Source of the DNA: Microglena sp. YARC
Lineage: Eukaryota > Chlorophyta > Chlorophyceae > Chlamydomonadales > Chlamydomonadaceae
Direction: 5' to 3'
Assembly: GCA_022414725.1 (NCBI GenBank)
Contig: CM039464.1
Location: forward strand, 31,739,109-31,803,108
DNA length: 64,000 bases
The notes below the pieces were generated by a model. That model made no database searches, was not told the DNA's origin, and was given only the letters and a program-made list of their open reading frames with translations. Below, piece by piece: positions 3 through 62,439 of the stretch. A program made the position numbers and the translations under genes. Position 1 is the stretch's first letter, and the number at the start of each line of letters is the position of its first letter.

Positions 3-169
3 ATGTGGCAGCTGGTTGCCAGGGTGTCAACGGCTCCGAAACCGCAGAACCGAGACCATGGAAGCTTGAAATCGGGGCCACAGAAGTACTACCAAGGGAA
101 GGCCACAAATCAGGACAGCATGGCCCCGCTCACATCGGGGACTTCTGGTACAACGCATATTGACCTCAG
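3..169 (+). CDS. Exon 1 (5' partial)
   Basis: Frame 3 is open from the window edge and ends ..THIDL plus two bases at CCTCAG|GTATGCG. The two leftover bases pair with exon 2 in its only long open frame, which supports this exon. Frame 1 has an early stop and frame 2 stops just before the donor. The Met at position 3 may be internal. The same CCTCAG|GTACGCG edge is then repeated along intron 1. Confidence 0.5.
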
Positions 170-219
170 GTATGCGTTGCGGTGGTGGTGGTGTGTGTGG
201 GGGGGGGGGGGGCTCGGAA

Positions 220-253
<34 letters not shown>

Positions 254-3200
254 ACCTCAGGTATGCGTTGTGTTGGTGGGGTGTTCGTGGGGTTGGGGTG
301 GGGGAAGGGGTGGGGTGGGGGAACCTCAGGTACGCGTTGTGTTGGTGGGGTGTTCGTGGGGTTGGGGTGGGGGGGCGGGGGGGTGGGGGAACCTCAGGTA
401 CGCGTTGTGTTGGTGAGGTGTTCATGGGGTTGGGGTTGGGGTTGGGGTGGGGGAAGGGGTGGGGTGGGGGAACCTCAGGTACGCGTCGTGTTGGTGGGGT
501 GTTCGTGGGGTTGGGGTGGGGGGGGCGGGGGGGTGGGGGAACCTCAGGTACGCGTTGTGTTGGTGAGGTGTTCATGGGGTTGGGGTTGGGGTGGGGGAAG
601 GGGTGGGGTGGGGTGGGGAACCTCAGGTACGCGTTGTGTTGGTGGGGTGTTCGTGGGGTTGGGGTGGGGGAAGGGGTGGGGTGGGGGAACCTCAGGTACG
701 CGTTGTGTTGGTGGGGTGTTCATGGGGTTGGGGTGGGGGGGGCAGGGGGGTGGGGGAACCTCAGGTACGCGTTGTGTAGGTGGGGTGTTCGTGGGGTTGT
801 GGTGGGGGAAGGGGTGGGGTGGGGGAACCTCAGGTACGCGTTGTGTTAGTGAGGTGTTCATGGGGTTGGGGTTGGGGTGGGGGAAGGGGTGGGGTGGGGT
901 GGGGGAACCTCAGGTACGCGTTGTGTTGGTGGGGTGTTCGTGGGGTTGGGGTGGGGGAAGGGTGGGGTGGGGGAACCTCAGGTACGCGTTGTGTTGGTGG
1001 GGTGTTCGTGGGTTGGGGTGGGGGGGGCGGGGGGGTGGGGGAACCTCAGGTACGCGTTGTGTTGGTGAGGTGTTCATGGGGTTGGGGTTGGGGTGGGGGA
1101 AGGGGTGGGGTGGGGTGGGGGAACCTCAGGTACGCGTCGTGTTGGTGGGGTGTTCGTGGGGTTGGGGTGGGGGGGGCGGGGGGGTGGGGGAACCTCAGGT
1201 ACGCGTTGTGTTGGTGAGGTGTTCATGGGGTTGGGTTTGGGGTGGGGGAAGGGGTGGGGTGGGGTGGGGGAACCTCAGGTACGCGTTGTGTTGGTGGGGT
1301 GTTCGTTGGGGTTGGGGTGGGGGAAGGGGTGGGTGGGGGGAACCTCAGGTACGCGTTGTGTTGGTGGGGTGTTCGTGGGGTTGGGGTGGGGGGGGCGGGG
1401 GGGTGGGGGAACCTCAGGTACGCGTTTTGTTGGTGGGGTGTTCGTGGGGTTGTGGTGGGGGAAGGGGTGGGGTGGGGGAACCTCAGGTACGCGTTGTGTT
1501 GGTGAGGTGTTTATGGGTTGGGGTTGGGGTAGGGGAAGGGGTGGGGTGGGGTGGGGGAACCTCAGGTACGCGTTGTGTTGGTGGGGGTGTTCGTGGGGTT
1601 GGGGTGGGGGAAGGGGTGGGGTGGGGGAACCTCAGGTACGCGTTTGTGTTGGGTGGGGTGTTCGTGGGGTTGGGGTGGGGGGGGCGGGGGGGTGGGGGAA
1701 CCTCAGGTACGCGTTGTGTTGGTGAGGTGTTCATGGGGTTGGGGTTGGGGTGGGGGAAGGGTGGGGTGGGGTGAGGGAACCTCAGGTACGCGTCGTGTTG
1801 GTGGGGTGTTTCGTGGGGTTGGGGTGGGGGGGGCGGGGGGTGGGGGAACCTCAGGTACGCGTTGTGTTGGTGAGGTGTTCATGGGGGTTGGGTTTGGGGT
1901 GGGGGAAGGGGTGGGGTGGGGTGGGGGAACCTCAGGTACGCGTTGTGTTGGTGGGGTGTTCGTGGGGTTGGGGTGGGGGAAGGGGTGGGGTGGGGGAACC
2001 TCAGGTACGCGTTGTGTTGGTGGGGTGTTCGTGGGGTTGGGGTGGGGGGGCGGGGGGGTGGGGGAACCTCAGGTACGCGTTGTGTTGGTGGGGTGTTCGT
2101 GGGGTTGTGGTGGGGGAAGGGGTGGGGTGGGGGAACCTCAGGTACGCGTTGTGTTGGTGAGGTGTTCATGGGTTGGGGTTGGGGTGGGGGAAGGGGTGGG
2201 GTGGGGTGGGGGAACCTCAGTTACGCGTTGTGTTGGTGGGTGTTCGTGGGGTTGGGGTGGGGAAGGGGTGGGGTGGGGAACCTCAGGTTACGCGTTGTGT
2301 TGGGGGGTGTTCGTGGGTTGGGGTGGGGGGGGCGGGGGGGGGGGGAAACCTCAGGTACGCGTTGTGTTGGTGGGGTGTTCGTGGGTTGTGGTGGGGGAAG
2401 GGGTGGGGTGGGGGAACCTCAGGTACGCGTTGTGTTGGTGAGGTGTTCATGGGGTTGGGGTTGGGGTGGGGGAAGGGGTGGGGTGGGGTGGGGGAACCTC
2501 AGGTACGCGTTGTGTTGGTGGGGTGTTCGTGGGGTTGGGGTGGGGGGGCGGGGGGTGGGGGAACCTCAGGTACGCGTTGTGTTGGTGAGGTGTTCATGGG
2601 GTTGGGTTTGGGGTGGGGGAAGGGGTGGGGTGGGGGTGGGGGAACCTCAGGTACGCGTTGTGTTGGTGGGGTGTTCGTGGGTTGGGGTGGGGCAAGGGTG
2701 GGGTGGGGGAACCTCAGGTACGCGTTGTGTTGGTGGGGTGTTCGTGGGGTTGGGGTGGAGGGGGTGTGGGGGTGGGGGAACCTCAGGTACGCGTTGTGTT
2801 GGTGGGGTGTTCGTGGGGTTGTGGTGGGGGAAGGGGTGGGGTGGGGGAACCTCAGGTACGCGTTGTGTTGGTGAGGTGTTCATGGGGTTGGGGTTGGGGT
2901 GGGGGAAGGGGTGGGGTGGGGTGGGGGAACCTCAGGTACGCGTTGTGTTGGTGGGTGTTCGTGGGGTTGGGGTGGGGGAAGGGGTGGGGTGGGGAACCTC
3001 AGGTACGCGTTGTGTTTGTGGGGTGATGGTGGGGTTGGGGTTGGGGGGCGCGGGGGGTGGAGGAACCTCAGGTACGCGTTGTGTTGGTGGGGTGTTCGTG
3101 GGTTGGGGTGGGGAAGGGGTGGGGTGGGGGAACCTCAGGTACGCGTTGTGTTGGTGGGGTGTTCATGGGGTTGGGGTTGGGGTGGGGGAAGGGGTGGGGT

Positions 3201-6200
3201 GGGGATACCTCTGGTACGCGTTGTGTTGGTGGGGTGTTCATGGGGTTGGGGTTGGGGTGGGGGAAGGGGTGGGGTGGGGAACCTCAGGTACGCGTTGTGT
3301 TGGTGAGGTGTTCATGGGTTGGGGTGGGGTTGGGGGAAGGGGTGGGGTGGGGAATCAGGTACCCGTTGTGTTTGGTGAGGTGTTCATGGGGTTGGGGTTG
3401 GGGTGGGGAAGGGGTGGGGTGAGGAAACCTCAGGTACGCGTTGTGTTGGTGAGGTGTTCATGGGGTTGGGGAGGGGAAGGGGTGGGGTGGGGGAACCTCA
3501 GGTACGCATTGTGTTGTGGGGTGTTCGTGGGTTGGGGTGGGGGGGCGGGGGTTGGGGGAACCTCAGGTACGCGTTGTGTTGGTGGGTGTTCGTGGGTTTG
3601 GGGTGGGGGGGCGGGGGGTGGGGGAACCTCAGGTACGCGTTGTGTTGGTGGTGTTCGTGGGTTGGGGTGGGGGGGGCGGGGGGTGGGGAACCTCAGGTAC
3701 GCGTTGTGTTGGTGAGGTGTTCATGGGGTTGGGTTTGGGGTGGGGGAAGGGTGGGGGTGGGGTGGGAACCTCAGGTACGCGTTGTGTTGGGTGGTGTTCG
3801 TTGGGTTGTGGGGGAAGGGTGGGATGGGGACCTCAGGTACGCGTTGTGTTGGTGGGGTGTTCGTGGGGTTGGGGTGGGAGGGGCGGGGGGGGTGGGGGAC
3901 CTCAGGTACGTGTTGTGTTGGTGGGTGTTCGTGGGGTTTGTGGTGGGGGAAGGGGTGGGGTGGGGGAACCTCAGGTACGCGTTGTGTTGGTGAGGTGTTC
4001 ATGGGGTTGGGTTTGGGGTGGGGAAGGGGTGGGTGGGGTGGGGGAACCTCGATTCGCGTTGTGTTGGTGGGGTGTTCGTGGGTTGGGGTGGGGGGGCGGG
4101 GGGGTGGGGGAACCTCAGGTACGCGTTGTGTTGGTGAGGTGTTCATGGGGTTGGGTTTGGGGTGGGGGAAGGGGTGGGGTGGGGTGGGGGAACCTCAGGT
4201 ACGCGTTGTGTTGGTGGGGTGTTCGTGGGGTTGGGGTGGGGCAAGGGTGGGGTGGGGGAACCTCAGGTACGCGTTGTGTTTGGGGGTGTTCGTGGGGTTG
4301 GGGTGGGGGGGGGGGGGGTGGGGGAAACTCAGGTACGCGTTGTGTTGGTGGGGTGTTCGTGGGGTTGTGGGTGGGGGAAGGGGTGGGGTGGGGGAACCTC
4401 AGGTACGCGTTGTGTTTGGTGAGGTGTTCATGGGGTTTGGGTTTGGGGTGGGGGAAGGGGTGGGGTGGGGTGGGGGAACCTCAGGTACGCGTTGTGTTGG
4501 TGAGGTGTTCATGGGGTTGGGGTTGGGTTGGGGGAAGGGGTGGGGTGGGGTGGGGGAACCTCAGGTACGCGTTGTGTTGGGTGGGGTTGTTGGGGTGGGG
4601 AACCTAAGTGGTTGTGTTGGGGTGGGGGGGGGGGGGGGGGCGGGGGTGGGGGAACCTCAGGTACGCGTTGTGTTGGTGGGGTGTTCGTGGGGTTGTGGTG
4701 GGGGAAGGGGTGGGGTGGGGGAAACCTCAGGTTACGCGTTGTGTTGGTGAGGTGTTCATGGGGTTGGGGGTGGGGGTGGGGGCGGGGGGGGGGATGTGGG
4801 GAACCTCAAGGTACGCGTTGTGTTGGTGGGTGTTCGGGGTTGGGGTTGGGGGGGGAGGGTTGTGGGTGGGGGAAGGGGTGGGGTGGGGGAAACTCAGGTA
4901 AATACGCGTTGTGTTGGTGAGGTGTGTTGGGGTTGGGGGGTTGGGGTGGGGGGGGTGGGGGTGGGGGAACCTCAGGTACGCGTTGTGTTTTGGTGGGGTG
5001 TTCGTGGGGTTGGGTGGTGGGGGGGAAGGGGTGGGGTGGGGGAAACTCAGGTACGCGTGTGTTGGTGGGGTGTTCATGTGGGTTGGGTTGGGGTGGGGGG
5101 GGGGGGAAGGGTACGCGTGGGTGGTGGGGTGGGGGAACGTACGGGTTGTTGGGGGTGTTTGATGGGGTGGGGTGGGTGGGGGAACCTCAGGTACGCGTTG
5201 TGTTTGGTGGGTGGGGTGGGGGGGTTGGGTGGGGGGGGTGGCGGTGGGGTGGGGGGAACCTCAGGTACGCGTGTTTGTGTGGGTGGGGTTGGGGTTGGGG
5301 TGGGGTAGGGGTGGGGTGGGGGGGAACCTCAGGTACGCGTTGTGTTGGTGGGGTGTTCGTGGGGTTGGGGTGGGGGGGGGTGGGGGTGGGGAACCTCAGG
5401 TACGCGTTGTGTTGGTGGGGTGTTCGTGGGGTTGGGGGGGAAGAAGGGGTGGGGTGGGGGAAACTCAGTTACGCGTTGTGTTGGTGAGGTGTTCATGGGG
5501 GTTGGGTTTGGGGTGGGGGAAGGGGTGGGGTGGGGTGGGGAACCTCAGGTACGCGTTGTGTTGGTGGGGTGTTCGTGGGGTGGGGTCGGGGGGCGGGGGG
5601 GGTGGGGGAAACTCAGGTACGCGTTGTGTTGGTGAGGTGTTCATGGGGTTGGGTTTGGGTGGGGGAAGGGTGGGGTGGGGTGGGGAACCTCAGGTACGCG
5701 TTGTGTTGGTGGGGTGTTTGTGGGTGTTGGGTGGGGGAAGGGTGGGGTGGGGGAACCTCAGGTACGCGTTGTGTTGGTGGGGTGGTTCGTGGGGTTGGGG
5801 TGGGGAAGGGGTGGGGTGGGGGAACCTCAGGTACGCGTTGTGTTTGTGGGGTGATCGTGGGGTTGGGGTGGGGGCGGCGGGGGGGTGGGGGAACCTCAGG
5901 TACGCGTTGTGTTTGTGGGGTGTTCGTGGGGCTTGTGTGGAGTGGGAAGGGGTGGGGTGGGGGAACCTCAGGTACGCGTTGTGTTGGTGAGGTGTTCATG
6001 GGTTGGGGTTTTTTGGGGTGGGGAAGGGGTGGGGTGGGTGGGGAACCTCAGGTACGCGTTGTGTTGGTGGGGTGTTCGTGGGGTTGGGGTGGGGAAGGGG
6101 TGGGGTGGGGAACCTCAGGTACGCGTTGTGTTGGTGGGTGGTGTTCGTGGGTTGGGGTGGGGGAAGGGGGTGGGGTGGGGGAACCTCAGGTACGCGTTGT

Positions 6201-9200
6201 GTTGGTGGGGTGTTCGTGGGTTGGGGTGGGGGAAGGGGTGGGGTGGGGGAACCTCAGGTACGCGTTGTGTTGGTGGGGTGTTCGTGGGGTTGGGGTTGGG
6301 GGGGCATTGGGGGGTGGGGTAACCTCAGGTACGCGTTGTGTTGGTGGGTGTGTTCGTGGGTTGTGGTGGGGGAGGGGTGGGGTGGGGGAACCTCAGGTAC
6401 GCGTTGTGTTGGTGAGGTGTTCATGGGGTTTGAGGGTTGGGGTGGGGGAAGGGGTGGGTGGGGTGGGGGACCTCAGGTACGCGTTGTGTTGGTGGGGGCA
6501 TGTTTCGTTGGGGTTGTGGGTGGGGGGGCGGGGGGTGGGGGAACCTCAGGTACGCGTTGTGTTGGTGAGGTGTTCATGGGGTTTGGGGTTGGGGTGGGGG
6601 AAGGGGTGGGGTGGGGTGGGGAAACCTTAGGTACGCGTTGTGTTGGTGGGGTGTTCGTGGGTTGTGGTGGGGGAAGGCACGATTTTTTGGTGGGAACCTC
6701 AGTGGGGAGTGTTCATGGGGTCTAGGGTGTGGGTGGGGGAAGGGTGGGTGGGGTGGGGAACTCAGGTACGCGTTGTGTTGGTGGGGTGTTCGTGGGGTTG
6801 GGGTGGGGGGGGGGCGGGGGGTGGGGGAACCTCAGGTACGCGTTGTGTTTGGTGGGGTGATTCGTGGGGTTGTGGTGGGGAAGGGGTGGGGTGGGGTGAA
6901 CCTCAGGTACGCGTTGTGTTGGTGAGGTGTTCATGGGGTTCGGGTTGGGTGGGGAAGGGGTGGGGTGGGGTGGGGGAACCTCAGGTACGCGTTGTGTTGG
7001 TGGGGTGTCGTGGGGTGTGTGGTGGGGGCGGGGGGTGGGGAACCTCAGGTACGCGTTGTGTTGGTGGGGGTGGAGGTTGGGGGTTGTGTGAGAAGGGGTG
7101 GGGTGGTGGGACCTCAGGTACGCGTTGTGTTGGTGGGGTATCGTGGGATTGGGGTGGGGGAAGGGGGTGGGGTGGGGGAACCAACAGGTACGCATGTGTT
7201 TTGTGGGGTGTTCGTGGGGGTTGGGGTGGGGGGGGCGTGGGGGAACTCAGGAGAAGGGGCGGGGGGTGGGAACCTCAGGTACGCGTTGTGTTGGTGAGGT
7301 GTTCATGTGGGGTGGGGTTGGGGTGGGGGATGGGTGGGGTGGGTGGGGGAACCTCAGGTACGCGTTGTGTTGGTGGGGTGATCGTGGGTTGTTGAGGGTG
7401 AGGGCGGGCGGGGGGTGGGGGGAACCTCAGGTACGCGTTGTTTTGGTGAGGTGTTCATGGGGTTGACTCGTTTTGGTAGGAAGGCGGGGGGGGGGTGGGG
7501 AACCTGCAGGTACGGTTGAGTGTGTTGGTGGGGGAGGGTTATCGTGGGGTGTTGGGGAAGGTAACGCCCGTTGTGTTGGTGGGGGGACCTGGGCTCGCAC
7601 ACGGGTGAGTGGAACCTCAGGTACGCGTTGTGTTTGGTGGTTCAATGGGGTGGGGTTGTAGGGGGGCGGAATATACGGGGTGGGGAACCTCAGCTACGCG
7701 TTGTGTTGTGCTGGGGGGTGGTGGGTGTTGCGCGGGCTGGGTGGAACCTCAGGTACGCGTTGTGGTTGGTGAAGTGTTCATGGGGTTGGGTTTGGGGTGG
7801 GGGAAGGGTGGGGTGGGCTGGGGGGAACCTCAGGTCGCGTTGTGTTGTGGGGTGTCCGTGGAGTTCGGGGATTTTTTAGGGGTGGGGCGTGGAACCTCAG
7901 TACGAACCTCAGTTGTGTTGGTCGAGGTGTTTCATGGGGGTTTGGGGTGGGAGGGTGGGGTGGGGGAACCTCAGGTACGCGTGTTGTGGGTGATGGGGTG
8001 TGGAGTTGGGAATTGTGGGGGGCGGGGGGGTGGGGGAACCTCAGGTCCGCGTTGTATAGTTGGTGGGGTGGGGACCTCAGGTACGTGTTGTTGGTTTGGG
8101 GTGGGGGAAGGGGTGGGTGGGGTTGGGGTGGGGGAAGGGGTGGGGTGGGTGTAAATTCCTATGTTGTGGTTAGTGGGCCTGTGTTAGTACGCGTGGGGGA
8201 AGGGGTGTGGGGGAACCTTTGGTGGTTGGTGTGGGTGTTCGTGGGGTGGAATGGGGCGGGGCGGTGGGGGGGTGAAACCTCAGGTTAACGGGTGGTGGGT
8301 GTGTTCGTAGGGTGTTGTGGTTGGGGGGAGGGGGGTGGGGTGGGGTGGGGAACCTCAGGCGTACTGTTTCTGTGTGGTGGGGTGTTCGTGGGGTTGGTGG
8401 GGGAGGGGTGGGGTGAACCTGGTGAACCTTCCTGGGTGGGTTTCGGTGGTGTGGTCGTTTCAAGTTGTGGTCTTGGTGAATGATGTGGGGAATAGGTGTG
8501 ATGTGGGTTCTCAGGTACGCGTTGTGTTGCTTCATGTGGGGGAAGCTGTGTTAAGGGGTGGGGGTGGGGGAACGTGGGCCTTGGGGTGGGGGTTGGGGGG
8601 GCGGGGGGGTGGGGGAAACACTCAGGTACGCGTTGTGTTGGTGGGGTGTTTCGTGGGGTTGTGGTGGGGGAAGGGTGGGGTGGGGTGGGGGGGCGGAACT
8701 CAGGTACGCGTTGTGTTGGTTGGGTGTTCGTGGGGTTTAGTGGTGGGGGAAGGGGCTGGGGTGGGGGAACCTCAGGTACGCGTTGTGTTGGTGGGGTGTT
8801 CGTGGGGGGTGGGGAAGGGGTGGGGTGGGGGAACCTCAGGGCCCAATGGGGTGGGGTGTTCGGGGTGTGGTGGGGGCATGGGAACCTCAGGTACGCGTTG
8901 TGGTTGGTGGGGTGTTCATGGGGTTGGGTGGGGGAAGGGGTGGGGTGGGGGGGGGCACCTCAGGTAGCGTTGTGTTGGTGGGTGTTCGTGGGGTTGGGTG
9001 GGGGAAGGGGTGGGGTGGGGGAACCACAGGTACGCATGGGGGGTGGGGGGTTGGGTGGGGGGGGCGGGGGGTGAGAACTCCCGGGGTGTGTGGTGGGGTG
9101 TTCGTGGGGTTTGGGGCGGGGGGTGGGGGAACTCAGGTACGCGTGTGTGGTGGGTGTCATGTTCGGGTTGGGGTTGGGTGGGGATGGGTGGGTGTGGGGG

Positions 9201-12200
9201 AACCTCAGGTACGCGTTGTGTTGGTGGGGTGATCCGTTGTGGGGGCGGGGGTGGGGGAACTAGGTGTTTGGTGAGTGTTCATGGGGTTAGGTTGGGTGGC
9301 CTGGGGTGGGGGTGGGGGTAAACTCAGGTACGGCGTTGTGTTGGTGGCCTGGTGTTCGTGGGGTGGGTGGGGCAGGGGATGGGGGAACCTCAGGTGCGCG
9401 TTGTGCGTGGTGTGTTCATGGTGGGGTTGGGGTGGAGAAGGGGTGGGGTGGGGCGGGAGGAACCTCAAGGTACGCGTTGTGTTGGTGGGGTGTTCGTTGG
9501 GGGTTGGGGTGGGGGACAGGGGTGGGGTGGGGGAACCACAGGTACGCCATTGTGTTTGTTGGGGTGTTCGTGGGGTTGGGGTGGGGGGGGCGGGGGGGGG
9601 AGAACCTCGGTACGCGTGTGTTGGTGGGGTGTTCGTGGGGTTGGGGCGGGGGGGTGGGGAACCTCAGGTACGCTTTGTGTTGGTGAGGTGTTCATGTGGG
9701 GTTGGGGTTGGGGAGCTGGGGGAAATGGGTGGGGTGGGTGGGGGAACCTCAGGTACGCGTTGTGTTGGTGGGGTGATTCGTGGGGTTGGGGTGAGGGGGG
9801 CGGGGGGGGGGAACCTCAGGTACGCGTTGTGTTGGTGAGGTGTTCATGGGGTTGGGGTGGGGGAAGGGGTGGTGGGGTGGGGGAACCTCAGGACTCTGCG
9901 TGTGTTGGTGAGGGTGTTCGTGGGGTTTGGGAGTGGGGGGGGCGGAGGGTGGGCGTGGGGGGAACCTCAGCGTACGCGTTGTGTTGGTGGGTGTTCAGTT
10001 CGTGGGCGTTGGGGTGGGTGGGGAAGGGGTGGGAGTTAAGGGGGAACCTCAGGTACGCGTTGTGTTGGTGGGTGTTCGCGGGGTTGGGGTGGGGGAAGAG
10101 GTGGGGTGGGGGAACCTCAGGTACGCGTGCTTGGTGGGTGTGTTCGTGGTGTTGGGGTGGAGGGGGCGGTGGGGGTGGGGGAACCTTCAGGTACGCGTTG
10201 TGTTGGTGAGGTGTTCATTTGGGGTTTGTTGTGGGGGGGAAGGGGTGGGGTTGGGGGGGGAACCTTCAAGGTACGCGTTGTGTTGGTGAGGTGTTCATGG
10301 GGTTGGGTTTGGGGTGGGGGAAGGGGTGGGGTGGGAAACCTTCAGTAACGGGGGAAACCTAAGATGGAACCTCAGCGTACGCTGTGTGTTCATTTTGGGT
10401 TGGGGTGGGGGTGGGGGAAGGTGGGGTGGGGTGGGGAACCTCAGTGCGGGTGTTGGGGTGTTCGGGGGGGGGTGGGGGGGGCGGGGGTGGTGGGGGAACC
10501 TCAGGTACGCGTTGTGTTGGTGAGGTGTTCATGGGTTTGGGTTGGGTTTGGTGGTGGGGAGGGGTGGGTGGGGTTGGGGGAACCTCTGGTACGCGTTGTG
10601 TTGGGTGGGGGTGGGGGGGCGGGGGGTTGGGGTGGGGGGTGCGGGGGGAGTGGGGGGAACTTCAGCGTACGCGTTGTGTTGGCTTGAAGGTGTTCATGGG
10701 GTGGGGGGTTGCTTGGATGGGGAAGGGGTGGGGTGGGGAACCTCTCAGGTACGCGTTGTGTTGTGGGGTGGGGGTGTCGTTCCGGGGTTGGGTGGGGGGA
10801 AGAGGATGGGTGGGGCGGGAACCTCAGGTACAGGTACGCGCAGTACGTGTTGTGTGGTGGTTTTCGGGAGGGTTGGTGCGGGGGGCGGTCGGGGTGGGGG
10901 AACCTCAGCAGGTACGCCGTTTTTTGTGTTGGTGAGGTGTTCATTGGGTTGGGTTGGGAGTGGGGGAAGGGGTGGGGTGGGGTGGGGAACCTCAGGTACG
11001 CGTTGTGTTGGTGGGCGGTGTTCGTGGGGTTGGGGTGGGGTGGGGAAGGTGGCTGGGGGGGGAAACCTCAGGTACGCGTTGTGTTGGTGAGGGGTGTTTC
11101 ATTGGGGTTGGGGTTGGGGTGGGGAAGGGGTGGGGCTGGGGTGGGGGAACCTCAGGTACGCGTTGTGTTGGTGGGGTGTTCGTGGGGTTGGCGGTGGGGG
11201 GGGCGGGGGGGTGGGGGAACCTCAGGTACCGTTGTGTTGGTGAGGTGTTCATGGGGTTGGGTTTGGGGTGGGGGAAGGGGTGGGGTGGGGTGGGGAAACC
11301 TCAGGTACGCGTTTGTGTTGGTGGGTGGGTGTTCGTGGGTTGTGGTGTGGGAAGGGGTGGTGGGGGAACACTCAGGTCACGCGTTGTGTTGGTGGGTTGT
11401 TCGTGGGTTGGTCGGGAGGAGGGGGGGGAAACTCAGGTACGCGTTTGTGTTGGTGGGGTGTTCGTGGGGTTTGTGGTGGGGAAGGGGTTGGGGTGGAAAC
11501 CTCAGGTACGCGTTGTGTTGGTGAGGTGTTCATGGGTTAGGGTTGGGGTGGGGAAGGGGTGGGGTGGGGTGGGGAACCTTCAGGTACGCGTTATGTTGGT
11601 GGGGTGTTCGTGGGGGTTGTGGTGGGGGGGGAACGGGGGGGTGGGGGAAAACCTCAGGTACGCGTTGTGTTGGTGGGGTGTTCATGGGGTTGGGTTGGGG
11701 TGGGGGAAGGGGTGGGTGGTGGGTGGAGAACCTCAGGTACGCGTCCTGTGTTGGGTGGGGTGTTCGTGGGTTGGGGTGGGGTGGGGGGGGGGGTGGGGGA
11801 ACCTCAGGTACGCGTTGTGTTTGGTGAGGTGTTCATGGGCGTTGGGGTTTTGGGGTGGGGAAGGGGTGGGGTGGGGTGGGGGAACCTCAGGTACGCGTTG
11901 TGTTGGTGGGGTGTTCGTGGGGTTGTGGTGGGGGAAGGGGGGGTGTGGGGGAACCTCAAGGTACGCGTTGTGTTGGTGGGGTGTTCGTGGGGTTGGCGGT
12001 GGGGGGGGGCGGGGGTGGGGAACTCAGGTACGCGTTGTGTGAGGTGGGCGTGTTCGTGGGGTTGGTGGTGGGGCAAGGGGTGGGTGGGGGAACCTCAGGT
12101 ACGCGTTGTGTTGTGGGGTGTTCATGTTGGGTTTGAAAGAGGGTGTGGGGGAACCTCAGGTACGCGTGTGTTGGTGTGGGTGTTCATGGGTTGAGGGTTG

Positions 12201-15200
12201 GGGTGGGAAAGGGGTGGGGTGGGGGAACCTCAGGTACGGTTAAACCACACTCCGTGTGTGGTGAGGTGTTCGTGGGGTTGGGGTGGGGTTGGGGAAGGGG
12301 GTGGGGTGGGGGACCTCAGGTACCCGTTGTGTTGGTTAGGTGTTCATGGGGTTTGGGGTTGGGTGGGGGAAGGGGTGGGGTGAGGGAAACCTCAGGTACG
12401 CGTTGTGTTGGTGAGGTGTTCATGGGTTGGAGGGGAAGGGGTTGGGTGGGGAACCTTCAGGTACGCATTTGTGTTTGGGGTGTTCGTGGGGGGGGTGGGG
12501 TTGGGGTGGGCGAACCTCAGGTACTGCGTTGTTTGGTGCGGGTGGGTCGTGGGGTTGGGTTGGGGTGGCCCTCAGGGTTGGGTGGTGGGTTTTAAGGGGT
12601 GGGGAGTGGGGCGGGACCTTCAGGTACGCGTTGTGTTGGTGGTGTGTTCGTGGGGTTTGGGGTGTGGGCGGGGGCGGGGGGGTGGGGGAACTCAGGACGC
12701 GTTTGTGTTGGTGAGGTGTTCATGGGGTTGGGTTTGGGGTGGGGGAAGGGGTGGGGTGGGGGAATCTCAGGTACGCGTTGTGTGTTGGTGGGGTGTTCGT
12801 CGTGGGGTTGTGTGGGGGAAGGGGTGGGGTGGGGGAACCTCAGGTACGCGTTGTGTGTGGTGGGTTTAATCTCTTTGTTCGTGGGGTTGGGGTGGGGGAG
12901 CGGGGGGGTGGGGTGAACCTCAGGTACGCCGTTGTTGTTGGATGGGGTGTTCGTTAACGGGGGCGGGGTTGTGGTGGGGGAAGGGTGGGGTGGGGGACCT
13001 CAGGTAACGCGTTGTGTTGGTGTGAGGTGTTCATGGGGTTTGGCGGTTGGGGTGGGGAAGGGGTGGGGTGGGGTGGGGGAACCTCAGGTTACGCGTTGTG
13101 TTGGTGGGGTGTTCGTGGGGTTTTGGGGTGGGGGGGCGGGGGGTGTGGGAACCTCAGGTTACGCGTTTTGTTTGGTGAGGTGTTCTATGGGGTTGGGGTT
13201 GGGGTGGGAGAAGGGGTGGGGTGGGGTGGGGGAACCTTCAGGTACGCGTTGTGTTGGTGGGGTGTTCGTGGGGTTGGGGTGGGGGAAGGGTGGGGTGGGG
13301 GAACCTCAGGTACGCGTTGTGTTGGTGGGGTGTTCGTGGGGTTGGGGTGGGGGGGGCGGGGGGGTGGGGGAACCTCAGGTACGCGTTGTGTTGGTGGGGT
13401 GTTCGTGGGGTTGTGGTGGGGGAAGGGGTGGGTGGGGAACCTCAGGTACGCGTTGTGTTGGTGGGGTGTTCATGGGGTTGGGGTTGGGGGTGGGGGAAGG
13501 GTGGGGTGGGGGAACCTCAGGTACGCGTTGTGTTGGTGGGGTGTTCATGGGGTTGGGGTTGGGGTGGGGGAAGGGGTGGGGTGGGGGAACCTCAGGTACC
13601 CGATGTGTTGGATAGGTGTTCATGGGGTTGGGGTTGGGGTGGGGAAGGGGTGGGGTGAGGGAACCTCAGGTACGCGTTGTGTTGGTGAGGTGTTCATGGG
13701 GTTGGGGAGGGGAAAGGGGTGGGGTGGGGGAACCTCAGGTACGCATTGTGTTTGTGGGGTGTTCGTGGGGTTGGGGTGGGGGGGCGGGGGGGGGTGGGGA
13801 ACCTCAGGTACGCGTTGTGTTGGTGGGGTGTTCGTGGGGTTGGGGTGGGGGGGCGGGGTGGGGGAACCTCAGGTACGCGTTGTGTTGGTGGGGTGTTTCG
13901 TGGGGGTGGGGTCGGGGGGGCGGGGGGGTGGGGGAACCTCAGGTACGCGTTGTGTTGGTGGGGTGTTCGTGGGGTTGGTGTGGTGGGGGAACCTCAGGTA
14001 CGCGTTGTAGTGGTGGGGGTGGGGTGGGTGGGTCCCGTCAAGTTAAATACACACACACCCTTCTCCCCCCTCACACACACCCTCAACCCCTCACACACAC
14101 TTCCTCCCCCCCCTCCAGGTATGGACAATTCCCTCATATGACGCTGGCTGCCCTTACACCCCTGTCAAGTTAAATACACACGACCTCCGGCACACATACG
14201 CACCCTTCCACCCTCCCACACACACACCCTACCACCCTCCCTCACACACACAGGCCTGGATCACTCCCATGTGGCTGCAAAGGCGCTGGCTGTCCTTATG
14301 CCCCAGTCAAGTTAAATACACACGCTACCCCCCACACACACACACCCTCCCACACTCCCACACACACTTCCACACAGGCCTGGATCACTCCTACATGTGG
14401 CTGCAAAGGCCCTGGCTGCCCTTGCGCCCCTGCCAAGTTAAATGCACACACCCTACACACACCCTCCCACCCTCCCAGACACACACGGATAGATCACTCC
14501 CACATGTGGCTGCAAAGTCGCTGGTTGCCCTTACGCGCCTTACGAGCTGTATTCACTCTTTGTTCATGTCCCCGTCAAATTAAATACACACACACCTTCC
14601 CACGTACACAACCTCCCGCACACACTCACACACACACTCCCCCCCTCCCCCACACACAGGCCTGGATCACTCCCACATGTGGTAGCAAAGGCGCTGGCTT
14701 CCCTTACGCGACTTACCTGTATTTACCCTTTGCTCATGCCCCTGTCAAGTTAAATGCACGCACACCTTCCCACACACACGCCCTCCAGCACACACACCCT
14801 CCCCTCCTCCCCCACACACAGGCCTGGATCACTCCCACATGTGGTAGCAAAGGCGCTGGCTTCCCTTACGCGACTTAGCTGTATTTACCCTTTGCTCATG
14901 CCCCCGTCATGTTAAATACACACACACCCTCCAGCACACACACCCTCCCCTCCTCCCCCCCACACAGGCCTGGATCACTCCCACATGTGGTAGCAAAGGC
15001 GCTGGCTTCCCTTACGCGACTTTGCCGTATTCACCCGGCGCTCATGCTTCTGCCAAGTCACGTTGGTTTGGAGCTCAGCAGGCAGAAATTAGCAAGCAGC
15101 AGCAGCACAAGCACCAGCGATGGAGACAACAGCAGCAGTAGTGGCAGCAGTGGCAGCAGAAGCAGCAGCAGCTATGGCCCTGCTTACAATCGAAGCAAAA

Positions 15201-18200
15201 ATAGTAGCCTCGGGGTTGCCAGCCGTCAGAGCATCCTGTGTTTGTGGGTTGAACCCTTGCTTACATGCCTAACCATGGTGGGCGACGTGGCCATTCCCCC
15301 TCGTGAGCTTGCCTCCATTCTCAAGTCGGTAGCAATGCTCGCGTTGTATAAGCAGCTCCTCACGAGGCGGCAGCTGAAGGAGCGGGAGAAGGCCAAGGGT
15401 AGGGACGGGCGCAGCCTCCCTCCCAAACCAAGCCAAGTCGCCAACCTGGCAAACCCGCTAATAGGCTCGTGTTACGTCCAGGTCACGCGCCTGGCACAGC
15501 TGGCGGTGGGCCAGGCATCGCTGCCAGGGAGCGAAGAGAGGGACAGGTATGTGTGTATGTATGTATGAATGAGCGGAGAGAGGGACAGGTATGTGTGTGT
15601 ATGTATGTATGAGCGAAGAGAGGGACAGGTATGTGCGTATGTATGTATGTATGAGCGGAGAGAGACAGGTATGTGTGTATTTGTACAGTCCAGGGGTAGC
15701 CAAATAGGCTAAAGAGACTTGCCCAACCTGCATCCAAAACAGGAAAGACGCAGTTTAATAGAACAAGCACTGTGTTGAATACAGATCACCCGCCTGGCGC
15801 AGCGGGCGGTGGGTCAAGCATCGCTGCCCGGGAGCAAAGAGAGGGACAGGTATGTGTGTATTTGTACAGTCCAGGGGTGGCCAAATAGTCTTAAGGCGCT
15901 TGCCCATCCTGCACCCAAAACAAGAAAGAGGCAGTTTAAGAAAACAAGCACTGTGTTGTGTCTAGATCACCAGTCTGGCACACCTGGCGGTGGGCCAAGC
16001 ATTGCTGCCCGGGAGCGAAGAGAGGGACAGGTATGATAAGACCATTAATATGATGATGATAATGATGATGATGATGATGATAGAAAGAGGATGACCATTG
16101 CTATGAGGAGGAGGAGGAGGAGGAGGTTGACCAGGAGGAGGAGGAGGAGGAGGAGGATATAAGGATAATAATCGTTGCTGTGGTTGTAATGATAATGAGG
16201 ATGATGACCATTTTTCGATGATGAGCATTGACCATGTAAATATAAGATGATACAACTTGATCATGAGTGTCCTCTTTGTTTGCAGGGACATGCTTCACCG
16301 CCATCACCATCACCACAACCCTTATCACCACCACCACTACCAGCATCACCTCCACCACTACCACCATCACCACCACCATCATCACCTTTGTTTACAGGTA
16401 CATGCTCCACCGCCATCACCATCACCACAACACTTATCACCACCACCACTACCAGCAGCACCTCCACCACTACCACCATCACCACCACCATCACCTTTGT
16501 TTGCAGGCACATGCTCCTTCTGGCGGCAACTATCTTCACCTCCACCACCACCACGACTATCTTCACCTCTACCACTACCACCACCATCATCATCACCTCC
16601 TTTGCTACCACCACCCACCACCATTTTTATCACCACCACCACAACCCTAATCACCACTACCACCACCATCACCTCTACCACTACCCCCATCACCTCCACC
16701 ACTACCACTATCACCTTTGTTTGCAGGTACGTGCTTCTTCGGGCGGCAAATGCTCTAGATGCTGTCGCAGCCCTGGAAGCAGAAGCGGAAGCCAACAGAG
16801 GTGGGGACAGGAGCGGTAAGAGCAAGGCAGCTACTATTGCTCAGAGGCTGCACTCTGCAACTAAGGCAGTTCAGTGACGTTGTGTAGTAGGCTGCATAGG
16901 GGGGCATGAGTGGTTATAGCAAGGCAGCTGCTATTCCTCAGAGTCTGTGCACTGTAACTGGGGCAGTACAATGACAGGCCTAGGCAGTACAGTGACAGGC
17001 GTAGGTAATACGTTGTGTAGTAGGATGCAGAGGGGGACAGGAGTGGTTATAGCCAGGCAGCTGCTATTGCTCAGAGGCTGTACGCTGCAACTAAAGGCAG
17101 TGCAGTGACAGGCTGAGGCAGTACAGTGACGTTGTGTAGTGGGATGCAGAGGGGGGCATGCGGGGTTCGAGCCAGGCAGCTGCTATTGCTCAGAGGCTGC
17201 ACTCTGCGATGTGGCAGTACAGTGACAGGCTTAGGCAGGACAGTGACAGGCTCAGGCAGTGGAGTGATGCTGTGCGGTATGATGCAGAGGGGGGCAGGAG
17301 TGGTTATAGCAAGGCAGTTGCTATTGCTCAGAGGCTGTACGCTGCAACTGGGGCAGTACAGTGACATGCTGAGACAGTACAATGACGTTGTGTAGTAGGA
17401 TGCATAGGGGGGCAGTACTGTTTATAGCAAGGCAGCTGCCATTCCTCAGAGGCTGTACACTGTAGCTTGGGCAGTACAGTGAAAGGCTCAGGCAGTGGAG
17501 TGATGCTATGCGGAGGGTTCTTATGTTGTAGAATTAAATGATCACTGTAGCAAGAACTCAGGTCCTCCATCGGTAAAACGATTGTTTGGGGTTCAGTTTA
17601 TCTGTGCTTTTTCTTTTTAAGCCCTTCCTATACGGTTGGGAAAGTCCCTTTAGCCTATTTGGCCTACCCCTGGACTAATACATACATACATACATACACA
17701 GGGAGGCTGGATGGAGCAGGCAGAGCCAGGCAGCTTCTATTCACTGTTTGTGTTTTTTACGATGTGACGTCATTCTGTTGTTACATGGCGACGCATGAAC
17801 CCCCCAAACCCCCGCGCTCCGCCATGCGATGGCTACGCAACAATCCTGAAATCAGGCTTGAGTAGCCCAAGTAGCTACTCAACCTGGTCTACAGAAATCT
17901 GAAATAAAAACTCAGCTGCAACATTGCTCACAGGCTGCATTTTTCAACTGAGGCAGTACAGTGACTGGGTTGCAGCTATGCAACCATGCATGGACGGATT
18001 ATATATTTTAATCGGCGCTACATGTACTGCTGCAGAAAATGCTGAAGTACACTTCCAATGTAGCTGTAGCAGTATTTGATATATGTGCGTTTAATTTTCA
18101 ACACGCGCAAGTGCACATGAAAAGTTGATATGTCATGTAGTTGTCATAGATAGGCCATTGTTTATGTACTGCTCGATATAACACTGAAGTTCACTTCTGA

Positions 18201-21200
18201 TGTAGCCATACCAGTAGTTGATATATGTTTGTATGTATGTTACAGTCCAGGGGTAGGCCAAATAGGCTAAAGGGACTTGCCCAACAGTGTAGGAAGGGCT
18301 TGAAAAGAAAAAAACATTGATGAATGAACCCCAAACAATCTGTGTGTCTATTTTGGAGGTGGGCGTATTCATCCAATGCATCTTACATTACATTACATTA
18401 CATTACATGTTAAAGTCTACTTGACACCGCGAGGGTGTATGAGACTCTGTGCTTTAAACAAAAAGAAAAGGCACCCACAAAGCAAAAAACCCCATTACAT
18501 CAGGGGTGTGTCGAGGACAAACAAACCAAACTCCCAACCACCGTTTTGGTGGCGTAGGTATTAAACCCCTTAGAGCAGGACCCAGATCTCAACCACTTAC
18601 AGTGGCGGAGGTAAGAAGCTAACAAATGAGAAGTCTCAAGAAGAAAAAAAAGGGATAATAAATTACGGTGCCACTAAGCAGTCCAGGGCTTCCTGTCTTG
18701 CTCTTCTACAAGTAGAAAGATAGTCGGCTAGGTTGCTCCAAAAAGACTTAGTGCCATTTCCATTCATAAAGGTTCTGAATGTGGAATCGCAGAATTCCAC
18801 ATTCCATACGGTTAAGTCGGTATCCTCATGGACATGCCTATAAATATCTGTAAACAGATTCTGGTAGCGGAGGCGAATATCATTATAAAAAGGGCACTCA
18901 AACATATGCATTTCATCCTCAGTTTTTTGGAACCCACACATTTGACAGTGTCTCATTGAGCGAGGGATGTGTGCTCTATCCACCACCCTCATTCTTTCTG
19001 TGTTCAGCCAATGGGAACCCATTCTAAACTGTGCTATAGAACGAATCTGATCCTGCTTATGTAAGGCGGATGTAAAGGGAATCAAGCCATTCTCATCATT
19101 GCTGTTGGCTGCGAACCATTTTTTGGTATCGGAGGCGTTTAAAGCCAACCCTTCTCTCATCAGGGATGTCTCTAACTGCATTGGTGTCACTTGGGTACTT
19201 AAACCTCCATGACTCAAAAACTTCAGACATAATACCTTCGACATCGACAGCCTCCAAAATGTTGATGTTTTTACTGGATCCTAGCTTGTGGAGAGCACAA
19301 CGCAAGTCATGAACCCAGCCAGTGTTGGAGTCAAAAGATTCCTCAAGAGCCATTCTAATGAGATCCTCAGGTTCTTTATGTATGGTCTTGTTCCAGAAGC
19401 GCAAAGCTTGTTTAAGCCAAGCAAAACACAACGGGGTTCTACCCAGCTCTTCCATGATAATATTAGATGTAGTAGATTGGCAAACACCCAACATTTGTTT
19501 AAGTATACCTCTATGCCATTTCTCACAAGCATGGTCATTTGAGATAAGTGTGTTGTTCAGAATAGAAGGAGCCCACACCTCACAGCCAAAATTCAGGATA
19601 GGTTGTACAAGAGAATCAAACAGGTGGGTGAGAATATCAATATTGTATATCTCCATAGTATGGCATCGCCTACGAAGCATGTGGTGTGCCTTTTGGGCCT
19701 TAGTGAGCATCCTAGAAAAAGCAGCTTTTGCACGATTGCTTGAGTCACCATCCACAAAGAGGGATCCCAAGTAGATAAAAGATAACTTTGTAGAAAGTTG
19801 TGCTCCATCATAGACAAATTTGTAATCAGGATCCATGCGGGCCTCATCACAGAATTGTTTGTTGAAAACGACAATCTCAGTTTTCTTTATATTCACAGCC
19901 ATCTTAGTAGCCTCGCAGAAATCTCTCAGGCAGTCAAGCATCGCTTGCATATCTGCCGGGATTCTGCCATTATAGCTAGGTCATCAGCATAAAGTAACAG
20001 TTGCAGAATCTTTCCCCTAAGCTCAGCCCCTACATTTGGGAGCTTGGATTGGAGGAACGATTCAATTCTATCAATGAACAGACCGAATAGGAGTGGGGAT
20101 AGGGGGTCTCCTTGTTTAACTCCTACAAGGGATGGAAAGGAGGATCCAATGTCCCCATGTAGGCGAACTTGGAAAACAACATGATTATACATGGACTTCA
20201 GAATACTGAGATAGGGGTCCTTGACTCCTAGCCTTGCTAAGCAATCCCATAGCAAGTCTCTGTTGACCCAATCATAAGCCTTCTTGAAATCAACAAAAGC
20301 CACAAAGAGTGGTTTTTTCTTTTCTCTATATTTATCTACAATATGGTTAAGAATGAATGATGCATCTGCAGTACCCCTACCACTTCTAAATCCATATTGG
20401 CCAGCGGCTCTGAGGTTGAATTCTTCTGACCAATCATCTAGTCTACGTAGCATGCAAAGGGAGAAGATCTTTCCTATGGAGTTGCTCACCGCAAGACCTC
20501 GATAGTTGTCCTTGTCATACACACTGCCTTTGGATTTGGGTACGGGTACCAAGGCAGCTGCAGCCCATTGGCTGGGGTAAGAAGTCTTCCAGATGAGATT
20601 AAACAGGTTAGTCATAGCTTGTACAAATCGGGAGTTGGCCTCATGGGAAGCAAATCTGTACCATTCTGCAGGGATACCATCTACCCCGGGGGAGGAGTTT
20701 TTCCGTAGGGATTGGAGAACAGAAAACACCTCCTGGGTGGTAAAGTCTTGACATAACCATGTTGGTGCGGCCTCTATCTGAGGTCCATCAGCTTGAGGGA
20801 CAAAGTCCCTAGCATCCAGACTTGGATCAATACCTACTTGCACATCAAAGAGGTCTGCAAAATAATCAGTCCAATCATGAATTGTGATATCTGCCGTAGT
20901 GGCCTTGTTAGGCTCACGCACGTCTTTCCAAAAACTTTTCGGATTATGCCGAAGATTCGTATGAAGGTTCTCCATGCGTGTTTCTAGCCACTTCCTCTTC
21001 TTTCTTCTGAGAATCCTCTTGTACTCCTTGTGCATAGAACCAGCCAAGTCAGAGCTAGAGCCATGTTGATGTTCTGCTTGGCTTGCTGCCTGTCTAGCAC
21101 GATTGCATTCATCATCATACCATGCGTTCACGGGCCCGTGCTTACGCTTAGCTACAGGTTTGTGACATGGTGTGCATTTGCTTATGGCTAGTTCAATAGC

Positions 21201-24200
21201 ACTAGCAATCCCCTTCTCTGAATCTTCCATAGATGAGCTATGGAGTGCATTGTCAAGTAATCGGTTAACATCTGTGAGGAAGGCTGGTAAATTAATAAAT
21301 AAATGGTATGCCTTATTACGAGGCGTGAGGTTGAGGGGACCAGCCCGTTTGCTTGCACTGGGGCCCACCATCAATAGATATAGGAAGGCAAGATGAAAAT
21401 CATCCGTCTAATTCCCTCATTTTGCGTTCTATACTTGAGCTAGGTTACATACCTCCACGGTGACTATAGCTAGCTCCGGCTTACGCTATGGTGTCCGTAC
21501 CTTCACGTCCTGTGAGTAACGGTATTACACGGATGTAACAATTTCAATTTCAATTTCAATTACATACCTCCAGCCAGCAATTTCAATTTCAATTTCAATT
21601 ACATACCTCCAGCCAGAAATTTCAATTTCAATTTAAATTACGTACCTCCAGCCAGCAATTTGGCTGCTCGCCGTCTTCCGCAGTAAAACATTGCCAGGAA
21701 TATGTAAACGCAGAAGAAAAAATATATACTATTATATGGTGTGTATATAAATACATATGTGTTCTATTACACCGGTATATATATTGTAGATAAAGAAGAA
21801 GAAAGTGAAGGAGAGATTATCAGGTCAAATCCGTGTGTTTGTTTGTTTGTTTCCTTTATAATTACTTGTTCGGGTTTTACAGGCCAGGTCTGTTCAAAAC
21901 GCTGCGTCTTTTGTGTCAGACGCAGCTTTGAGAGTGTCTGTCGAGTCTCAGATGCAGATCATGAAGGTCTGAAGAAAGTCATATAACTAGCGATAACTGG
22001 CTGCCAACCATTACGAAGGCGATGGCATGGCGAAAGTCCTCATGAGAATAATGGTGGCAACGCTATTTTATATTTTTCGTTCGAAGTCGGTACATCGATG
22101 ACACCTCCTAACGCCCACTGATCAAGTGCATTTTTTATACCGGTCTATAGATATGTATGTTACAATCCAGGTGTAGGCAAATATGTAGGGACCGGCAAAT
22201 CATATGATGCTGACCAAAGAGGAGTTTGATATCATATGATATCATACAAATATCATATGATTTAACTCATATGATATGATGCCGTAGGCCAAAGTTCCTT
22301 AGTCAGACCGCCGGCATCGTATGCTATCATACGATATCATGTCATCATAGGATATCATACCATATTGCCGACCCCTACAAATTTGCTGAAGGGGGCAGGT
22401 TTGTTCAAATCCCTCAGGTGCGAAAGTCCTTCTCGTAAGAACTAAGAGTGTTTATTTGGCATAAGCAGAGCCCCCCACCCCACCCCACCCCACCCCACCC
22501 CAAGCTCTAGGTAGCATCGCAAACGACGTGGGAAATTTGCGGAGAGTGTTGGCTATCGAACGACAGGCGGCAACAGAATGGAGCGGACCGAAGCCAGTTA
22601 GTTACGAGACGGTTGGCTGCCGTGTCAGGCTTGGTCTCGTTACCGCCCCTCCATGGGTAGCGACTTCGGTACAACAGCCGTACTGCCGGATGCGCCAAAC
22701 GGAGGCGCCAAACGGGTGCGCCAAACGGAGGCGCCAAACGGATGCGCTAAGGAACCTAAGGGTTTGCCCTACAAAGTGCATTTGGACCGCACCAACTGAC
22801 GTTTGCAAACGGCAGGCAGCTCGAGAAACTCGCAAATACAGTCACCTCCACTCGACTCGAAGCAAATTTCAGATAAGTTGTATTTGCAGTTACGCCACCT
22901 CATCTTCCAGGTACATTTAAGTTAAACTGCGCTCAAACCACTTGACGTTAGGATTCGGCAGTCAAGTCACCTCGAAGGAGACTGCCAAGTCACAGCCGGA
23001 GGGTGCACAGCCTTAGTTTATGACGTATCGCGCAACTGTATACCAAAGCGCGTTAAACGAGACATACGTTCCGCAAGAATAGCCACGAGGACAACAACAA
23101 GGTTACGCAAATCGCACACCAAACAACCCTAGCTCCCCATCCCCAGCGGATCCCCATACCTAACACGAGGGCAGAAACAAGGTTACACACACCGCGCACT
23201 GCATACAAAACAATCCTAGTTACCGCCCCTCCATGGTTACAGCGGGGCTACCCATTACCATCCCTAGCCACCAGCGGATCCCTAGGTCCAATTGGTCCAA
23301 TCCAACACAAGGGCGGTCACGCCCTTGTTCGTCTGTTGGACGGACAGACGGACATTCGTACAACGGGATGAATCTGGGGGAGCTCCGCCAAAAAATCGCA
23401 CGTCTCTATCAAAAGGTGCTAGACAGAGGCACATCTAAAAAAACTGAGTAGCGACACACGCACATGGGAGTCTGGGATGTGCGAGCAATTCGAACTAGGG
23501 GGTATGGGATGTGTGTGTTGACACGCTGACTCCTACGTTGAACTACCCTGAAAGGGACTTTCCCAAACCTTGATATCAGGAAAGGCAAAAGCTAAAACGA
23601 GCACTTAGGAATTGGCCCCCAACAAATCGTTTTAACGATGGAGGCCTTGAGCTCGTGCTACAGCTGGAAAAGGGGATTAACTTCAATTATCATGGAATCC
23701 CGGGGTGGTTCCGTCACTATAAAACGCGGAGACAAAATTGCGTCATCGGGGAATCGAACCCCGCTCTTCTGCTTGGAAGGCAGAAATAATAACCACTATA
23801 CGAATGACGCACTTAGTCATATTGATGTTATGCTCAATTTTCTTGGTAAAATTATAGATAAAAATCAACAAATATTGTGACTCGGCAGTTTGCTATATGA
23901 CCTATGGATTTCTGAATGGCTGCCTTTGGACCTGGCCGGTGACGACATCCTTTGGTGGACATTGCAGCGCTGTGGATACTAAAGTTTGCAGAGCCTTTCT
24001 AGCAAGGCTGCGTGTTGGCTGCATATAGCCAACAGGTCTGCCCTGTCAACGGGGGTGGATACCTTTATCTTGGATGTTTGTGCGTGCTTGGTTTGCGATT
24101 TGAAAACCCTGAACCGCGCCTTCCTTTTCGAATGCCTGGAGGTTGCTGGCCTTGGAGGTGGTTTCCTTACGTAGGTTCGCCTTCTCCTGTCCTCCACAGC

Positions 24201-61584: not shown

Positions 61585-62286
61585 TCACCTGCCCCCCTGC
61601 AGATAGTATCTAATAGATCCAGGGCAGTCGGGATCAGTCAACAGGGGTGTAGCTGCAGCCACCCACGTGGTGATGAATGCCTCATTCTTAACACCAAGTT
61701 TAGTTGCAGCCCACAAAGTGTCTGCGAGGCCCTGGGAAGTCATGCCATGAAGCTTGGGTGTAGCCACATCCACCCACTTGATGAGGAAGGCATCATCCAC
61801 AATACCAAGGTCAGCCGCAGCCCACAAAGTATTTGACAGGCCCTGGCAAGTCATCGCATGGAGCTTAGGTGTAGCCACATCTACCCACGTAGCGAGGAAT
61901 GCCTCGTTCTTAACACCAAGCATAGCTGCAGCCCATAGAGCGTCTGACAGACCCTGGGCAGTCATCTCGGGAAGCTTGGGTGTAGCCACATCCACCCACT
62001 TGGTGAGGAAGGCCTCATCCTTAATATTCAGCTCAGCTGCAGCCCACAAAGTGTTTGATAGGCCATGGCCAGTTATGCCATGAAGCTTGGGTGTAGCCAC
62101 ATCCATCCACTTGGTGAGGAAGGCGCCATCCTCAATACCAAGCTCAGCTGCAGTCCGCAAGGTGTTTGCAAGGCCCTGGCAACTCATGCCTCGGAGTTTA
62201 GGTGTAGCCAAATCTACCCACTCAGTGAGGAAGGCGGCATTCTTAACATCTAGCATAGCTGCACCCAGTAAAGTGTCTGACCAATC
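61585..62286 (-). CDS. OPR-like tandem-repeat protein fragment
   Basis: Six repeats of about 38 residues on the - strand (DEAFLTKWVDVATPKL, then GLSNTLWAAAELGI) give an alpha-helical solenoid. The pattern matches octotricopeptide-type repeats of algal organelle RNA-binding proteins and, more distantly, FASTK/RAP-associated repeats. Coding sequence is open from about 62286, where CTGCTCAG could be an acceptor, or from Met at 62256; it ends SIRYYLQGGR at 61585. No targeting peptide or RAP domain is present. Known OPR proteins are much longer, so this is a fragment, pseudogene or one exon. Confidence 0.65.
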   Translation of the reverse strand, partial: DWSDTLLGAAMLDVKNAAFLTEWVDLATPKLRGMSCQGLANTLRTAAELGIEDGAFLTKWMDVATPKLHGITGHGLSNTLWAAAELNIKDEAFLTKWVDVATPKLPEMTAQGLSDALWAAAMLGVKNEAFLATWVDVATPKLHAMTCQGLSNTLWAAADLGIVDDAFLIKWVDVATPKLHGMTSQGLADTLWAATKLGVKNEAFITTWVAAATPLLTDPDCPGSIRYYLQGGR

Positions 62287-62439
62287 CTGAGCAGATGTGA
62301 CTTATTTTTTACTTTGATCAAAGTCCTGGCTGAGGTTGGAGATGACCTCATGTAAGCTTGTCCGATCTCAGCTTGTAGCGATGCTAGCTATTAGCTATTT
62401 CTGGTCTTACTGGTTCCTGCAGAGTGTAGGTGGGCGTTT

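Follow-up and report, generated by a model that had tools for sequence, protein, structure and literature searches.

A predicted 14.8-kb intron at positions 170–14967 of a 64,000-nucleotide stretch of the Microglena sp. YARC genome consists almost wholly of serial copies of its own two borders, and we consider it probable that this is a spliceosomal intron which has grown through successive local tandem duplications of short stretches that cross its exon–intron junctions. The whole stretch, here called the window, is C3:31739109–31803108 (contig CM039464.1) and was placed within a 568-Mb assembly; positions are those of the window, and features lie on its plus strand unless the minus strand is named. 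That both borders are copied in series had been claimed in an initial annotation of this DNA, and our counts bear it out: 170 array copies keep the AG/GT of the 5' splice site (the slash marks the exon–intron boundary), and the 3' splice site has six extra copies, four of them intact. The same anatomy was found at other junctions of the window, at upstream junctions of the same gene, and in HSP70 introns.

Anatomy of the 14.8-kb intron

The 5' part of the intron is a G-rich tandem array (163–14035) of about 190 units of about 69 bp, delimited by Tandem Repeats Finder and by counts of the unit core, and most units carry a copy of the donor in the form CAG/GTACGC. Tandem Repeats Finder agreed with the unit number given in the initial annotation, returning a single array at 226–13983 with a period of 69 and 192.1 copies. 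A 20-nt core allowing up to 6 edits was found at 189 places in the array; the final 47 kb of the window gave 16. When up to 7 edits to the core were allowed, AG/GT was kept at 171 places, namely the junction at 170 and the 170 array copies, and the exact motif CAG/GTACGC was present in 138 of these 171. Higher-order structure of the array was weak, with identity flat by lag.

The 3' part is a C/A-rich tandem family (14036–14967) whose unit repeats the 3' splice site together with the start of exon 2, as CACACAG/GCCTGGATCACTCC. Intact extra exon starts, each keeping AG/GCCTGGATCACTCC, lie upstream of 14968 at 14254, 14378, 14660, and 14822, and decayed copies of the exon-2 border lie near 14118 and 14489. 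Over the first 91 nt of exon 2, there are 81 matches in the copy at 14660 and 80 in the copy at 14822. On direct reading, the two families abut at ∼14035 with nothing intervening.

The copies hold exon and intron sequence with order and orientation unchanged. The initial annotation had stated that the duplicated segment includes exon sequence, which held at both ends to very different extents: up to ∼90 nt of exon 2 is present in the 3' units, and the exon-1 sequence inside the G-rich unit amounts to only 7 nt, ACCTCAG. Because of this 7-nt match, and because the GTATGC variant of the donor is limited to the junction and the copy adjacent to it (2 of 171 places), we take the G-rich unit to be related to the end of exon 1.

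Reading frame across the intron

We retrieved 20 kb upstream of the window, the nearer 10 kb of which is designated L002. Exon 1 starts upstream of the window at L002:9825, is 344 nt long, and contributes its 3' part to positions 1–169; frame 0 alone is open across it, the other two frames having several stops. It is followed by the outermost 5' splice site, CAG/GTATGC (170–175), read from the sequence and given a donor score of 8.5. Joining 169 to 14968 keeps the frame open, so the outer edges of the intron meet in matching codon phase, as had been claimed. Exon 2 (14968–15546) has just one open frame, which is in phase with that of exon 1, and ends GGGACAG/GTATGT, and exon 3 (16727–16815) runs up to the donor GCG/GTAAGA. 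The intron begins with GT and ends with AG in consensus context (CAG/GTATGC ... CCCCACACAG/G), as do spliceosomal GT-AG introns. With splice sites picked by frame and consensus, six exon pieces, the first at the start of L002 and the last ending at position 16815, join in phase across the 14.8-kb intron to give 1061 codons with no stops.

Origin and integrity of the array

We searched all 568 Mb of the assembly for exact copies of the array core. Every match to an 18-nt core (100 of 100, which is also the count in the window) fell inside the 14.8-kb intron, with none on the other strand, and the same was true of a 29-nt core (28 of 28). Since the exact cores are private to this intron, we conclude that the array expanded locally. 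Introner elements, which are repeated sequences carrying splice sites, are dispersed between genes, and the insertion of a mobile satellite or an introner-like element with splice sites of its own would account for the full donor core present in most units. This origin is extremely improbable: near-identical copies at unrelated loci characterize dispersed introners, whereas the G-rich unit is confined to one intron, and exon 2 itself, up to ∼90 nt of it, is part of the 3' units. The genome-wide core searches, in which zero mismatches were allowed, largely refute a mobile element.

Another alternative is an assembly artifact, in which a short array was inflated or miscorrected. Indels relative to the first 42 nt of the unit numbered 0.5–1.1 per unit in each of the three leftmost 1-kb bins and in the final one, and 5–8 in the bins at 7, 8, 9, 10, and 12 kb, an approximately tenfold higher rate in the middle of the array than at its left edge. 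Units in window 7000–12900 have many indels and odd insertions, resembling poorly corrected long reads. We read the indel-rich middle as probable long-read consensus noise, and because of the high indel rate there, the number of units (about 190) is an estimate whose exact value is not to be trusted. An artifactual array is nonetheless improbable; both edges of the array are clean, nothing separates the two families, and a like anatomy with few copies recurs at nine other window junctions.

Splice-site choice

An intron with this many donor copies might serve as a working splicing device, in which inner donors or extra acceptors are used, or in which U1 snRNP and G-quadruplexes tune donor choice, yielding regulated or mostly unproductive transcripts. 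Competition among hundreds of splice sites, as proposed in the initial annotation, is conjectural. We scored the donors with a splice-donor matrix. The array copies scored below the first donor in 166 of 170 cases, although only slightly (median 8.0 versus 8.5), and because the difference is so small, the copies that keep AG/GT would be usable on paper. There are also 176 quadruplex-type G-rich stretches covering 7051 of the 13871 bases, in an array whose unit is itself G-rich. Against such a device, we paired all 171 donors, the first included, with the five intact acceptors and found that just 2 of the 855 combinations stay in frame through the whole of exon 2, 170 with 14968 and 398 with 14968. 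The inner donors following exon 3, at 16816, are decayed (GTTATA), which argues that border copies are not generally kept. We consider a splicing device unlikely. Based on the donor scores and the rarity of in-frame pairs, the outermost pair is favored, and the outermost sites are probably the ones in use.

Across the window, the outermost donor is the best or tied for best in five of seven families with copied donors, the large array being one of the seven. It is stronger than its copies at 16816 (GTAAGA versus GTTATA), at 36555 (GTGAGT versus GTGGGT), and at 38178 (CAG/GTAAGC versus weaker copies), and it ties with its copies at 15547 and 30770. In HSP70 genes, the outermost donor scores at least as high as its copies at five of seven copied donors.

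We also considered whether the G-rich 5' array pairs with the C/A-rich 3' array in RNA and so bridges the intron and aids splicing, as has been reported for GT and AC repeats at the ends of fish introns. GC skew is of opposite sign at the two ends of the intron (0.79 and −0.58), and their predicted duplex energy was −108.7 kcal/mol compared with a mean of −43.9 for random pairs of window segments. Shuffles that preserve dinucleotides, however, paired equally well or better (−116.8), and across seven introns, own ends (mean −65.5) did no better than swapped ends (−63.2). Functional pairing of this kind is therefore very improbable, and we rejected end-to-end pairing beyond what composition provides, since both shuffled and swapped ends pair as well.

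Other junctions of the window and the gene

The following intron of the same gene, intron 2 (15547–16726), has six donor borders, five of them extra, and four acceptor borders, three of them extra. The start of intron 3 (16816–17520) holds five copies of its donor border in decayed context (GTTATA and others). Further along the window, the acceptor border GCAG/ATGACCAAA occurs nine times as an exact match at 26864–29993, the last time at the exon 29870–29993. The exon 30617–30769 is followed by one copy of its donor border (30617–30862). A donor border GAG/GTGAGT has three copies, all GTGGGT (36555–37130), and a donor border CAG/GTAAGC has seven, in a 102-bp array (38178–38936). Finally, a donor border AAG/GTAAGC has one copy (41113–41290), and the acceptor border CAG/ATTGGGAGC of the exon starting at 44473 has two upstream copies (44270–44535). 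Positions 26864–29869 comprise ∼3 kb of GCAG/ATGACCAAA borders with long TCTTGC microsatellites between them, which makes this another large intron built from border copies.

We scored a junction as copied when the 40-mer across it recurred within 1.5 kb, whatever the intron length, with a score of at least 18 and no fewer than 6 nt to either side of the junction. Intron-side copies were found at 11 of 17 window junctions and exon-side copies at none (0 of 17). Random window positions outside the long arrays had a copy in 213 of 1500 cases, a rate well below that of the junctions (p = 2.5e-6), and other AGGTRWG sites outside arrays had one in 4 of 19. Shifting the test by 60 nt left copies at 2 of 17 positions when moved into the exon and at 12 of 17 when moved into the intron. 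The six junctions examined in the part of this gene upstream of the window behaved alike, with intron-side copies at four and exon-side copies at none (0 of 6). The length of exon within copies ranged from 7 nt to 113 nt across junctions, after 5 of the 17 rows of one set, which matched themselves, had been dropped; this varying exon share fits random breakpoints. Also in this gene, at L002:2814–4130, 8.8 units of 151 bp repeat an acceptor border and ∼113 nt of the exon that follows it.

HSP70 introns and genome background

An unbiased set of introns was taken from HSP70 genes. HSP70 exons were located with the family model (75 matches), ten multi-exon loci were taken, and introns were set by homology and splice context with repeats ignored; this gave 26 introns, with 7 of 33 exon pairs left out. 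Intron-side copies were present at 15 of 52 junctions (29%) and exon-side copies at 0 of 52. Copies were concentrated in the longer introns: introns of at least 1 kb had them at 13 of 20 junctions (8 of 10 introns), compared with 2 of 32 junctions (2 of 16 introns) in those shorter than 1 kb (Fisher p = 8.9e-6 by junction and 1.0e-3 by intron, with the 1-kb cut set after the first five loci had been viewed). The by-intron value is the safer one because junctions that share an intron or a gene are not independent. Median intron length was 1439 nt with a copy and 632 nt without.

As a background, we sampled 200 kb of contig C3 as 20 random 10-kb loci, from 20 of 60 drawn positions. Local tandem duplications cover 59364 of these 200000 bases (about 30%), and 392 of 1192 random positions (33%) have a nearby copy in the chosen direction. 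The duplicated DNA of this sample shows no enrichment of strong donor motifs: 9 of 30 lay within it, compared with a mean fraction of 0.246 for permuted motifs, 36 of 108 of which were at least as high. Because random positions show copies at 33%, junctions are not favored sites for duplication. What distinguishes junctions is polarity, copies lying on the intron side and none on the exon side in all three sets (0/17, 0/6, 0/52). A duplication mechanism specific to splice sites was accordingly set aside as unsupported by either the motif counts or the HSP70 rate. Two of the 20 random loci each contain a repeated donor family with exon-like upstream sequence, 49 nt of it in L019 (minus strand, 6279, 6092, and 5914) and 43 nt in L023 (plus strand, 3172 and 3301).

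Weighing the favored reading

Growth by junction-spanning duplication would proceed as follows. When a tandem duplication spans a junction, the extra copy would become part of the intron, while the coding sequence beside the outermost donor and acceptor would remain intact, and the event would therefore be nearly neutral. The same duplication within an exon would be purged. Given that local tandem duplications account for about 30% of the sampled DNA, introns would lengthen as a one-sided ratchet, and the 14.8-kb intron may have run away into a minisatellite, most likely via slippage or unequal exchange in G-rich DNA.

Several observations weigh against this account. Clean edges around a diverged middle are the opposite of the usual outcome of unequal exchange, which is homogenized centers. 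It is from the frame that we infer splicing of 169 to 14968. The 1061-residue product matched no Pfam family (best E 0.15), and the 279-residue spliced product, taken without the upstream exons, had no relative with E ≤ 1 among 8000 scored candidates, so that support for the gene comes from the open frame by itself. Some inner donors are as good as or better than the outermost one: 4 of the 170 array copies equal or exceed the score of the first donor, the copy at 41113 outscores its outermost donor by 0.1, and two of the seven copied HSP70 donors score slightly above theirs. The 17 window junctions are a biased set because they were partly noticed through their repeats, and measured against the rate in the whole window, long arrays included (675 of 1500 random positions, 45%), their count of 11 of 17 falls short of significance (p = 0.08). 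The HSP70 junction rate is no higher than that of random positions (29% versus 33%), which makes junction copies by themselves unremarkable, though it fits the proposed account. Finally, the link with length could partly run in reverse, longer introns offering more room for copies.

With these points taken into account, local growth from both borders remains the explanation that we favor. A broader proposal is that junction-crossing tandem duplication is a main route to long introns in this genome, intron length being a one-sided ratchet record of border copies and the 14.8-kb intron a runaway end point whose more than 100 donor-like sites are ignored in favor of the first; this we put forward tentatively, rating it as somewhat less probable than not.

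Relation to known systems

Intron lengthening is usually credited to transposons. Human introns derived from tandem arrays related to intron borders were reportedly described by Zhuo et al. in 2007.

Intron change through tandem repeats at exon–intron boundaries is already known (PMC2812944, PMC4974935, and PMC2891723). In human genes located in segmental duplications, minisatellite expansion at exon–intron boundaries alters intron structure (De Grassi and Ciccarelli 2009, PMC2812944). Those repeats resemble ours in their local origin, their expansion at the junction, and the reported elongation of exons and introns, and they average four 30-bp units (160 bp), often forming novel introns. They differ from the present case, which involves ∼190 units, an existing intron, both of its borders, and several introns of one genome. 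In the potato RdRp gene, and in the fission yeast and ATP2A1 cases recounted in the same paper, a boundary-crossing tandem duplication supplies splice signals (PMC4974935); here, by contrast, there is apparently no intron gain, the intron being lengthened and retaining copies of both its ends. In Drosophila, novel introns have arisen via tandem duplication with duplicated proto-splice sites (PMC2891723); unlike those introns, which are new and derive from coding sequence, it is an existing intron that grows here. Among the titles and abstract openings of a partial literature, we found no report of an intron made of serial copies of both borders or of genome-wide intron-side polarity.

If junction-spanning duplications are tolerated in the way proposed, the introns described here display a simple asymmetry that recurs within a single genome, its polarity strict and its occurrence associated with intron length. 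The 14.8-kb intron would also represent a natural experiment on 5' splice-site choice, since more than 100 near-identical donors follow the first, and it asks whether the spliceosome prefers the first by position.

Other features of the window

On the minus strand at 18663–21407, there is a LINE-type reverse transcriptase (RVT_1, E 1.7e-24) split across several frames, with a stretch 99% identical to the public protein P0001 over 52% of the query. Also on the minus strand, 61585–62301 encodes a repeat-built protein of 111-bp repeats, whose FAST_1 match falls short of the cut-off for that family. Positions 45469–47315 align with the predicted protein P0121 in two main blocks at 65–67% identity, and P0121 contains tandemly repeated peptides, which suggests tandem duplication in coding sequence too.

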